Assembly (NCBI GenBank): GCA_017744365.1
Contig: JAGIBL010000002.1
Coordinates: 992,001-1,056,000 of the forward strand
Direction of reading: 5' to 3'
Length of the DNA stretch: 64,000 bases
From: Nocardioidaceae bacterium
GTDB lineage: Bacteria > Actinomycetota > Actinomycetes > Propionibacteriales > Nocardioidaceae
This document shows positions 16,847-60,042 of this stretch, in pieces. How positions within the stretch are numbered: position 1 is the stretch's first letter; every line of letters starts with the position of its first letter. The translations under genes and the position numbers were made by a program. Under the pieces are notes generated by a model, which saw only the letters and a program-made list of their open reading frames with translations, did not search any database and was not told where the DNA came from.

Positions 16847-18253
16847 TCAGTGGGCCATGTCCACGAACCGGCTGTAGTGACCTTGGAAGAGCACGGTCAC
16901 GTCGCGGGTCGGGCCGTTGCGGTGCTTGGCCACGATGATGTCGGCCTCGCCGGGGCGGGTCGACTCCTTCTCGTAGGCGTCGTCGCGGTGCAGCAGCATC
17001 ACGATGTCCGCGTCCTGCTCGATCGAGCCGGACTCACGCAGGTCGCTCATCATCGGGCGCTTGTCGGCGCGCTGCTCGGGACCACGGTTCAGCTGGCTCA
17101 GCGCGATGATCGGGACCTCGAGCTCCTTGGCGAGCAGCTTGATCTGCCGGGAGAACTCGGAGACCTCGAGCTGGCGGGACTCGACCTTCTTGCCCGACGT
17201 CATCAGCTGCAGGTAGTCGATGACGACGAGCTTGAGATCGTGGCGCTGCTTGAGCCGGCGGGCCTTCGAGCGGATCTCCATCATCGTCATGTTGGGTGAG
17301 TCGTCGATGAAGAGCGGCGCGCTCGAGACCTCGCCCATCTTGCGCGCGAGCTTGGCCCAGTCGTCGTCGGTCATGCCGCCGTTGCGGATGTGGTTGAGCG
17401 GGATCTTGCCCTCGGCCGAGAGCATCCGCATCGCGATCTCGGACTTCGTCATCTCCAGGCTGAAGATGACGCTGGTCAGGCCGTTGTGGATCGAGGCCGC
17501 CCGGCAGAAGTCCAGGCCGAGCGTCGACTTGCCCATCGCGGGTCGCGCGGCGACGATCACCATCTGGCCGCCCTGGAGGCCGTTGGTCAGCTCGTCCAGG
17601 TCGGCGAACCCGGTCGGCACCCCGTTCATGCCGCCGTCGCGGTTCGAGATCGCCTCGATCTCGTCGAGGGTGCCCTCCATGATCGCGCTCAGCGGCGCGT
17701 AGTCCTCGGTGGAGCGGTTCTCGGTGATCGCGTAGATCTCCGCCTGCGCCCGGTCCACGGTGTCCTCGACCTGGCCCTCGCCGGCGTAGCCGAGCTGGGC
17801 GATCTTGGTGCCGGCGTCGACCAGCCGCCGCAGGATCGCCTTCTCCCGGACGATGTCGGCGTAGTAGCCGGCGTTGGCGGCGATGGGCACGCTGGCCGAG
17901 AGCGTGTGCAGGTACGGCGCGCCGCCGATCCGCTGCAGCTCACCCCGGCGCTGCAGCTCGGCGGCGACGGTGACCGGGTCGGCCGGCTCGCCGCGGGCGT
18001 ACAGGTCGGTGACCGCGTCGAAGATCGTCTCGTGCGCGGGCTTGTAGAAGTCGTGCGCCTTGCAGACCTCGAGGACGTCCGCGATCGCGTCCTTGGAGAT
18101 CAGCATCGAGCCGAGCACGCTCTGCTCGGCCTCGTTGTCCTGCGGAGGCATCCGGCCCGACCAGTGCTCCTGGTTGCCGGACTCGGGGAAGTCACCGGCG
18201 GGGTAGTCCGCGAACGCGGCCTCCTCCAGCCCGGCGGACCCGGTCATGCTCAT
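16847..18253 (-). CDS. dnaB: Replicative DNA helicase DnaB
   Basis: The 468-residue hexameric 5'-3' helicase that drives the replication fork. The N-terminal primase-interacting domain begins near MPPQDNEAEQSVLGSML. Walker A is ARPAMGKST, Walker B VVIDYLQLM, and the arginine-finger region includes LSQLNRGPEQR, MSDLRESGSIEQDAD and HRNGPT. No intein interrupts the usual P-loop insertion site, unlike some actinobacterial homologues. ATG 18253 is preceded by AGGGAGA; a second ATG two codons on is possible. Upstream lie three perfect DnaA boxes, which may place the gene under DnaA control. Confidence 0.97.
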   Translation of the reverse strand: MSMTGSAGLEEAAFADYPAGDFPESGNQEHWSGRMPPQDNEAEQSVLGSMLISKDAIADVLEVCKAHDFYKPAHETIFDAVTDLYARGEPADPVTVAAELQRRGELQRIGGAPYLHTLSASVPIAANAGYYADIVREKAILRRLVDAGTKIAQLGYAGEGQVEDTVDRAQAEIYAITENRSTEDYAPLSAIMEGTLDEIEAISNRDGGMNGVPTGFADLDELTNGLQGGQMVIVAARPAMGKSTLGLDFCRAASIHNGLTSVIFSLEMTKSEIAMRMLSAEGKIPLNHIRNGGMTDDDWAKLARKMGEVSSAPLFIDDSPNMTMMEIRSKARRLKQRHDLKLVVIDYLQLMTSGKKVESRQLEVSEFSRQIKLLAKELEVPIIALSQLNRGPEQRADKRPMMSDLRESGSIEQDADIVMLLHRDDAYEKESTRPGEADIIVAKHRNGPTRDVTVLFQGHYSRFVDMAH

Positions 18254-18635
18254 CGCGGATCTCCCTCTCACCTGCTGTGGACAACCTCTGCTGCGTGCGA
18301 CCTTAGGGGCGACCGGGGACAGGATCTGAATCCGGTTATCCACAGGGCCTCCACCGGCGTGTGGATAAGCCGCGATCCAATTCACAATTTGTTTCGGCCG
18401 ATCCACATTCAGCCGGACAGAACTGTGGATCGCACGGCCCCGCCTGCAACAACCAGGCCGCTGACCTGCGGTTTCGTGCATCCACAAGGTGTGGACCCAG
18501 ATTCTCGAGCAGATTGTTGTTAACTGTTTCGTCATCCGGACGCCCCGGTCTGCAAGTCGACAAATGACCCCGATCCCCCCGGAAACCCACAGGCCGGGTC
18601 CGGGACCTTCGGCCCGCGCCACTAGCCTCGCGGAC
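18254..18635. promoter_or_regulatory. Divergent dnaB/MATE intergenic region with DnaA-box cluster
   Basis: This 382-bp gap holds three perfect DnaA boxes: TGTGGACAA (18276-18284), TTATCCACA (18336-18344) and TGTGGATAA (18360-18368). Weaker 7-of-9 matches lie at 18399-18407, 18424-18432, 18478-18486 and 18490-18498. A relatively AT-rich patch with TTGTTGTTAACTG lies around 18513-18527. It could be DnaA-responsive control of dnaB or a DnaA-titrating/initiation-modulating site. The last 10-15 bases hold the MATE gene's -10 element. Confidence 0.8.
18623..18628 (+). promoter_or_regulatory. -10 element of the MATE gene (leaderless)
   Basis: TAGCCT, 7 bp before the ATG at 18636. This decided the start over upstream in-frame codons. 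Confidence 0.5.
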
Positions 18636-19934
18636 ATGCGCGCGGAGGACCGGGAGATCCTGCGGCTCGCCGTCCCCGCGTTCCTCGCCCTGGTCGCCGA
18701 GCCGGCCTTCCTGCTCGCCGACTCCGCCATCGTCGGCCACCTCGGCACCACCCCGCTCGCCGGCCTGGGCCTGGCCGGCGCGGTGCTCGGCACCCTGGTC
18801 AGCCTGTGCATCTTCCTCGCCTACGGCACCACCGCCTCGGTGGCCCGCCGGATCGGCGCCGGCGACCTGCCCGGGGCGCTGACCGACGGCGTGCACGGGC
18901 TCTGGCTCGCGGTGCTCATCGGCGCGGTCACCACCGTGGCCGGCCTGCTCGGCACGCCGGCGCTGATCGGCCTCTTCGACGCCTCGGACGCGGTCGGCGC
19001 GCAGGCCGAGCGGTACCTGCGGATCGGTGTGCTCGGCGCCGTACCGCTGCTGCTGATGCTCGCCGCCACCGGCATCCTGCGCGGCCTGCAGGACACCCGG
19101 ACCCCGCTGCTGGTGGCCGTGGGCGGCAACGTCGCGAACGTGCTGCTCAACCTGTGGCTCGTCTACGGGCTCGATCTCGGCATCGCCGGGTCGGCGCTCG
19201 GCACCGTGGTCGCCCAGACCGGCTCGGCAGCGGTGATGGTGGCCGTGGTGGCGCGCGCCGCCCGCGCGTACGACGTACGGATGCGTCCCTCGCTCGCCGG
19301 GATCGCCGGCGCCGGCCGTGCCGGGGTGCCGCTGCTGCTGCGCACCCTCACGCTCCGGGCCAGCCTGCTGGTGATGACGTACGGCGCCGCCGCCCTCGGG
19401 CCCGGCGACCTGGCCGCGATGCAGGTGGCCATGACGATCTGGACCTTCCTCGCCTTCGCCCTGGATGCGATCGCCATTGCCGCCCAGGCGCTCACCGGCC
19501 GCCACCTCGGCGCCGGCGACGCGGACCGGACCCGGCTGGTGACCCGGCGGATGCTGCGCTGGGGGCTCTGGTCGGGGGTGGTCACCGGGCTCGCGCTGGC
19601 GGCCGTCTCGCCGGTGCTCGGAGCCGTCTTCACCACCGATGCCGAGGTGCGCGACCTGCTGGTGCCGGTGCTGCTGGTTGCCGCGCTGGGGCAGCCGCTG
19701 GCCGGGGTGGTCTTCGTGCTCGACGGCGTCCTCATCGGCGCGGGCGACGGCCGCTACCTGGCCTGGGCCGGGCTCTGGGTGCTGGCCGTCTTCGCCCCGG
19801 CCGCCTGGCTGGCCGTCGCCGGTGGCGGCACGCTGACCTGGCTGTGGGTGGCGTTCGCGGTGGCGTTCATGGGCGGGCGCGCGGTGGTACTGCTGGCGCG
19901 CGAGCGGGGCGAGGCCTGGATGACCCTAGGCTGA
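18636..19934 (+). CDS. MATE family efflux transporter
   Basis: A 432-residue protein of about 12 transmembrane helices arranged as two similar halves. It has FLALVAEPAFLLADSAIVGHLG at the first helix and GILRGLQDTRTPL between helices, hallmarks of the DinF-like branch of MATE antiporters that export drugs or metabolites with H+ or Na+. The ATG at 18636 starts immediately before the first helix and follows a -10 at leaderless spacing. The stop codon overlaps the -10 of the next gene. Substrate unknown. Confidence 0.88.
   Translation: MRAEDREILRLAVPAFLALVAEPAFLLADSAIVGHLGTTPLAGLGLAGAVLGTLVSLCIFLAYGTTASVARRIGAGDLPGALTDGVHGLWLAVLIGAVTTVAGLLGTPALIGLFDASDAVGAQAERYLRIGVLGAVPLLLMLAATGILRGLQDTRTPLLVAVGGNVANVLLNLWLVYGLDLGIAGSALGTVVAQTGSAAVMVAVVARAARAYDVRMRPSLAGIAGAGRAGVPLLLRTLTLRASLLVMTYGAAALGPGDLAAMQVAMTIWTFLAFALDAIAIAAQALTGRHLGAGDADRTRLVTRRMLRWGLWSGVVTGLALAAVSPVLGAVFTTDAEVRDLLVPVLLVAALGQPLAGVVFVLDGVLIGAGDGRYLAWAGLWVLAVFAPAAWLAVAGGGTLTWLWVAFAVAFMGGRAVVLLARERGEAWMTLG
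19927..19932 (+). promoter_or_regulatory. -10 element overlapping the MATE stop codon (leaderless start at 19940)
   Basis: TAGGCT ends on the first base of the MATE gene's TGA stop and is 7 bp from the next ATG, so the downstream gene can have its own leaderless transcript. Confidence 0.45.
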
Positions 19935-59661: not shown

Positions 59662-60042
59662 GTCGCAAGAATTCCTGTGGTTCCCGGGACCGAATTCGGT
59701 GGATCGCCCGTGGACGGCCTGTGGACAACTGGGGACGAACCTCCACACCACGTCGTACGAACCACAGGCACCGCTTGCTCGCCCACCGCTCGTCCACAGC
59801 CACTGGGGACACGGAAACCGGCCGCCACCTGGGGATTCTGGAGTTGTCCACAGAATCCACGGGCCCTACTACGACAACGAGACATCAATTGGTTCCTTCG
59901 ACGTCCCACAACCGGGGCGCCACGAACCTGGGGACGAACGACAATGTTCTTCGGCTCCCCCGCAGACACGCAGGCGTGACAGGATGCCCATCCCGAGCAC
60001 TACCGGCCTCACCGTGAGGCAGAACAGCAGGAGGCACCACCC
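59662..60042. other. oriC: oriC region between dnaA and dnaN
   Basis: 381 bp without coding potential. Perfect DnaA boxes TGTGGACAA (59720-59728) and TTGTCCACA (59844-59852) are present, a one-mismatch TCGTCCACA at 59790-59798, and several weaker TGGGGA/CCACA matches. In streptomycetes and mycobacteria the origin is in this gap. The flanking genes diverge in strand bias from here, which agrees. Confidence 0.85.

Follow-up and report, generated by a model that had tools for sequence, protein, structure and literature searches.

A phased, directional row of DnaA boxes precedes dnaB in most Actinomycetes examined and may couple the supply of helicase to initiation of chromosome replication

The region upstream of dnaB, the gene for the replicative helicase, carries an array of DnaA boxes that is common to most Actinomycetes examined and through which the supply of helicase may be tied to the initiation of chromosome replication. 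The array was analyzed in a 64-kb stretch of DNA (hereafter, the window) and compared with the corresponding regions of other genomes. As judged from the sequence, the dnaB promoter is probably under direct control of a DnaA oligomer formed on this phased array, most likely as an activator. Binding of DnaA to the evenly phased sites before dnaB in this species is very probable.

The dnaB gene of the window starts with ATG at 18253 (MSMTG...), an alternative in-frame ATG being at 18247, and its ribosome-binding sequence reads AGAGGGAG; the nearest named loci by dnaB comparison, those of Marmoricola and Nocardioides, point to a Nocardioidaceae-like actinomycete. The gap between dnaB and the MATE-family gene (Table 1) is 382 bp long and AT-richer than the window (61% vs 71% G+C). 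The dnaA-dnaN gap is located at about 59662-60042, ~41 kb from the cluster upstream of dnaB. Scans of the window with Rfam (at gathering scores) and for tRNAs gave no matches, and no second copy of the dnaB-MATE gap was found in the genome.

Table 1. Genes, DnaA boxes, and putative promoter elements at the dnaB locus of the window
Feature	Position	Strand	Basis or remark
dnaB, replicative helicase	16847..18253	-	TIGR00665 DnaB, 549.6 bits, above the curated cut-off
DnaA box TTGTCCACA, in the putative 5' leader, downstream of the putative -10	18276..18284	-	sequence match
Putative -10 of the dnaB promoter, TAAGGT	18300..18305	-	TANNNT here in 21/22 genus sequences
Putative -35 of the dnaB promoter, TTCAGA, weak	18325..18330	-	8 bp after TGTGGA; congeners often have TTGGTG/TTGGCG
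DnaA box TTATCCACA, exact; inverted partner (TGTGGATAA toward dnaB), last before the putative promoter	18336..18344	+	sequence match and genus alignment
DnaA box TTATCCACA, exact; member of the 65-bp same-strand series nearest the promoter	18360..18368	-	matches the conserved TT.TCCACA in the genus alignment (22 sequences)
Weak DnaA box CGATCCACA, 7/9	18399..18407	+	sequence match
Weak DnaA box CGATCCACA, 7/9, 64 bp from 18360	18424..18432	-	sequence match
Conserved element CGCAGGTCAG within the array, not a DnaA box	18461..18470	-	CAGGTCA count across genomes
Weak DnaA box GCATCCACA, 7/9	18478..18486	+	sequence match
Weak DnaA box GGGTCCACA, 7/9, 66 bp from 18424	18490..18498	-	sequence match
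DnaA box, 7/9	18515	-	sequence match
Weak DnaA box TTGTCGACT, 7/9, 65 bp from 18490	18555..18563	-	position of TTGTCGACA in many congeners
MATE-family transporter gene, divergent neighbour of dnaB	18636..19934	+	PF01554, TIGR00797

An earlier note on this DNA had described three perfect DnaA boxes, four 7/9 matches, and an inverted pair separated by 15 bp, and all box coordinates, as well as the 15-bp separation, were confirmed. The boxes at 18336 and 18360 are exact, and the one at 18276 matches TTATCCACA in 8/9 positions but was rightly called perfect, because TTGTCCACA is listed as the high-affinity DnaA box of Mycobacterium tuberculosis and Streptomyces coelicolor (PMC4285127, Table 1). 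The four 7/9 matches were found at 18399 (+), 18424 (-), 18478 (+), and 18490 (-). The limits assigned to the cluster, 18276 to 18498, do not stand at either edge. On the right, 7/9 boxes also occur at 18515 and 18555. On the left, the 18276 box lies downstream of the putative -10 and has no counterpart of at least 8/9 in the same place in 21/21 congeners; thus, the conserved array spans about 18336-18563.

Positions 18257-18635 contain nine boxes of at least 7/9, compared with a mean of 1.5 and a maximum of 6 in 2000 dinucleotide shuffles, and three full TTRTCCACA boxes, compared with a shuffle mean of 0.0045 and a maximum of 1. The genome (4.76 Mb) has 29 exact TTRTCCACA sites, and nowhere else in it do three of them fall inside 100 bp. 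The cluster had been described as being as dense as the origin gap; it is indeed dense, and in fact denser than the dnaA-dnaN stretch of the window, where 405 bp contain six boxes scoring 7/9 or more. Over the first 144 genomes taken together, 527 boxes were counted in the 450-bp stretches preceding dnaB, compared with 20 expected by shuffles; equal lengths further upstream, much of them coding, hold about 10. Chance clustering of the boxes was rejected by the shuffle counts, both for the gap and for the 144-genome set.

Of 170 genomes of the class Actinomycetes, 159 have at least two boxes of at least 8/9 in the 450-bp region preceding dnaB. When palindromic sites are counted once (598 sites vs 613 readings), the number of such genomes is still 159. 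The set consists of the genome of the window, 54 relatives, and 115 genomes from a wider class sample, and covers 36 family labels. For the class sample, 118 of 196 matching genomes were read, namely the 30 best by score, including the genome of the window, and others picked to spread over families. Three genomes of label f1 with a distant dnaB (G077, G135, and G144) were tallied apart as f1x, which is included in the 36 labels. Genomes with no dnaB match (G012, G017, and G062) or a fragmented dnaB (G025) and loci with a partial dnaB (L052 and L069) were omitted. Plain counts are weighted toward genus-rich families, and the phasing test described below was weighted by family. Among named actinobacterial loci, which partly overlap the 170-genome set, 30 of 35 have at least two boxes. 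The earlier note had proposed that loss of the boxes in close relatives would refute its reading; all 21 congeners compared keep at least two boxes, and that reading survives this comparison. Outside the class, at least two boxes before dnaB were found in 5 of 40 genomes from other actinobacterial classes (40 of 89 matching genomes were read) and in none of 43 dnaB loci of the Clostridia/Chloroflexi type at the same threshold of 8/9. Thus, the cluster is largely specific to the class Actinomycetes. Two sets of exceptions count against the preferred reading: the 11 genomes of the class with fewer than two boxes (G031, G102, G078, G058, G127, G079, G243, G225, G069, G086, and G063) and the five such named loci (L016, L019, L020, L026, and L029).

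The boxes are arranged in a regular manner. In the 170-genome set, distances between same-strand boxes cluster at about 11-12, 21-23, 44-45, 54-56, 64-67, and 130-133 bp. The best period of same-strand spacing, weighted by family, is 10.85 bp with a strength of 0.62, and 300 jittered controls average 0.17 and do not exceed 0.28; without the family of the window, the period is 10.8 bp and the strength 0.63. The row is also directional, with 449 of 613 box readings oriented toward dnaB and 164 away (434 and 149 of 583 boxes, respectively, when palindromic sites are excluded). The main spacing in the genus is ~65 bp. The minus-strand series of the window, 18360, 18424, 18490, and 18555, advances in steps of 64, 66, and 65 bp, and thus its weak boxes fit the register of the relatives. 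The array of family label f7 looks looser. Stretches after dnaA in 20 relatives and the window show this period less strongly, with strengths, calculated without a null, of 0.40 for the same strand and 0.47 for opposite strands.

The array includes a further conserved element, CGCAGGTCAG. Its core CAGGTCA was found in the 550-bp region preceding dnaB of 85 of 170 genomes, compared with a mean of 4.9 and a maximum of 10 in 50 rounds of shuffling; the corresponding figures are 17 for the other strand and eight for a stretch further upstream. Outside family label f1, it is present in 37 of 121 genomes.

The array is positioned at a fixed distance from a promoter-like sequence. In 21 of 22 genus sequences, the distance from the last inverted box (TGTGGA) to TANNNT is 31-33 bp (33 bp in the window); the sequence that does not fit this search is G013. 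A strict pattern of TGTGGA followed by -35 and -10 elements was found in 37 of 170 genomes from five family labels, compared with 0.05 in shuffles, and in none of the 170 genomes on the opposite strand. Within these 37 genomes, the gap between the box and the -35 is 8 bp in 30, 7 bp in four, and 9 bp in three. The window itself does not conform to the strict pattern, its -35 being weak and its spacer 19 bp long; this failure and the restriction of the pattern to 37 of 170 genomes are also points against the preferred reading. The conserved boxes are situated upstream of the putative -35, with no overlap of this element or of the -10. In S. coelicolor, dnaB belongs to the modelled HrdB regulon (PMC6344877), which is consistent with a housekeeping promoter.

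In some relatives, a second promoter, of the PafBC type and associated with DNA damage, is present nearer dnaB. Using the motif TGTC(GG/AG/AC)-N10-TANNNT (PMC8151990), we found it in sense orientation in 38 of 170 genomes, compared with 0.3 in shuffles (for example, in G018, G046, and G119, between the array and dnaB); the seven antisense matches all belong to family label f20. The strict form is absent from the window, which has TGTCCC-N10-TAAGGT, and the 18276 box falls in the stretch where the relatives carry the PafBC-type promoter. This candidate motif suggests that dnaB may receive a DNA-damage input too.

The gap is shared by two divergent genes, and the boxes could in principle act for the MATE gene. 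The latter is a frequent neighbour, detected in the upstream stretch (about 1.1-1.9 kb taken) of 104 of 170 genomes. However, at least two boxes are present not only in 100 of these 104 genomes, but also in 59 of the 66 in which no MATE gene was detected; therefore, the cluster goes with dnaB rather than with MATE. Moreover, the pattern of box, -35, and -10 faces only dnaB (37 vs 0). Service to MATE is thus highly improbable, and it was rejected on both grounds. Extra dnaB-like copies do not decide much about the attachment of the boxes: none were found upstream of the copies in G051 (contig C8, partial) and G131 or of the copy on contig C9 of the genome of the window, and the second dnaB of G172, perhaps a strain variant, has three boxes upstream.

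Our preferred explanation is that the gap combines the dnaB promoter with an array of DnaA boxes that is directional, keeps helical phase, and sits just upstream of the -35. DnaA would seed on the strong inverted pair 18336/18360 and spread cooperatively over the weaker same-face boxes 18424, 18490, and 18555, and the molecule at the promoter-proximal box would contact RNA polymerase and, most likely, activate dnaB. The supply of helicase would then track the level or the ATP state of DnaA, rising with initiation capacity. In this species, the extra leader box at 18276 could contribute negative feedback when DnaA is abundant. An activator would be expected to bind in such a geometry, with phased boxes at a constant distance just upstream of the -35. 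The proposal of the earlier note that the boxes regulate dnaB is favoured, as a prediction for this species, by the retention of the cluster at dnaB without MATE, by the fixed distance to the promoter-like sequence, and by the reported binding of mycobacterial DnaA (PMC7738170).

Repression is another possible effect of a DnaA complex next to a promoter. Under negative feedback, the promoter-adjacent complex together with the leader box at 18276, just past the putative start in this genome, would block the polymerase, and in several bacteria DnaA is known to regulate its own gene (PMC8203912). We consider this scenario improbable, since the conserved boxes overlap neither promoter element, the 18276 box is not conserved in the 21 congeners, and in the I282T mutant of M. 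tuberculosis reduced binding is accompanied by reduced dnaB expression (PMC7738170). Somewhat less improbable, but still unlikely, is a reservoir near the origin, in which the cluster would bind DnaA soon after initiation, or speed its inactivation as datA does, and so delay re-initiation, its site before dnaB being secondary. The position of the cluster, near oriC but outside it, is of the datA kind; at about 41 kb from dnaA it is duplicated early, and the distance between dnaB and dnaA is 21-226 kb in each of the 37 genomes measured among 63 single-contig ones. DnaA-box clusters of S. coelicolor and Bacillus subtilis repress untimely initiation (PMC5742627), and a region of high motif density near oriC of Escherichia coli has been called advantageous for titration (PMC12371093). 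Yet a titrating cluster would require neither a constant distance to a -35, nor a preferred orientation toward dnaB, nor a link to this gene, and all three are seen; nor does the number of boxes clearly fall with the distance from dnaA in the 37 genomes. None of these genomes has dnaB far from oriC, so regulation and titration are not separable by position, and the two can coexist.

A second or relic replication origin is the least probable explanation. The phasing of the boxes resembles oriC, and the gap is relatively AT-rich, but its flanks are dnaB and MATE, without the dnaA or dnaN expected beside oriC, the dnaA-dnaN gap of the window has boxes of its own, and the place of the cluster is explained by the conserved promoter geometry. 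Compared with these alternatives, activation of dnaB by DnaA remains the preferred reading. A broader version of it is possible, and we offer it tentatively: an orisome-like DnaA filament might form at a promoter rather than at oriC, on a phased and directional array that would date back to the ancestor of the class Actinomycetes. It might read the same ATP-DnaA signal as oriC, switch on dnaB at initiation, and also buffer DnaA near the origin, with a second conserved factor binding CGCAGGTCAG and helping to shape the complex.

Binding of DnaA before dnaB is already published, and the principle is known. In vitro, M. tuberculosis DnaA binds the region preceding dnaB (Rv0057), homologous regions of Mycobacterium smegmatis are bound by DnaA in ChIP-seq, and in the I282T DnaA mutant weaker binding upstream of dnaB is accompanied by dnaB under-expression, a correlation from one mutant (PMC7738170). 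The mycobacterial region resembles that of the window in its place, in belonging to the class Actinomycetes, and in having DnaA as the binder; the difference is that binding was measured in mycobacteria (PMC7738170), for which no box array, phasing, or promoter geometry at dnaB was found in the literature searched. The two are probably an orthologous element. In Caulobacter crescentus, predicted DnaA boxes likewise stand upstream of dnaB, and the gene is among those whose expression depends on DnaA (Hottes et al. 2005, via PMC8203912). This species is an alphaproteobacterium, and its likeness to the actinobacterial array may be convergent. Another cluster outside oriC, in an actinomycete as here, is that of S. 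coelicolor, which represses untimely initiation (Smulczyk-Krawczyszyn et al. 2006, cited in PMC5742627). The datA locus of E. coli is likewise a DnaA-box cluster outside oriC. We know of no promoter-locked geometry at datA.

The array of the window has an unusually well-marked architecture. No description of a phased array before dnaB, of its promoter geometry, or of its class-wide spread was found in the limited literature searched, the scope of which did not extend to the 2006 paper on the S. coelicolor clusters. The clusters of that paper by Smulczyk-Krawczyszyn et al. are reportedly named H69, H24, and D78; looking for them by name in the literature gave no match. To our knowledge, Actinomycetes lack several of the controls of E. 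coli. If DnaA sets dnaB transcription via an origin-like array, initiation and helicase supply would depend on one signal throughout a class to which antibiotic producers and major pathogens belong, and how Actinomycetes keep the two in step would become directly testable. The array also places the reported mycobacterial binding of DnaA before dnaB into an evolutionary frame.

Two minor observations concern related sequences. On contig C7 of the genome (G000), three same-strand TTRTCCACA pairs, 27-28 bp apart, were found at 154799 (L135), 562453 (L136), and 977794 (L137); two of them precede genes with the AbiEi_4 domain, and one is situated between a gene for a dinB-type polymerase and a DUF4192 gene. 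As a general feature, TTRTCCACA-N17-19-TTRTCCACA was rejected, being present in 4 of 39 genomes, including the three places in this one. In the genus alignment, a block similar to CCAGATGACG (CCGGATGACG in the window) occupies 18530-18539, at the MATE-side end of the array, and CAGATG(A/G)C is present in 19 of 46 genomes of family label f1 and in one of four of f18.
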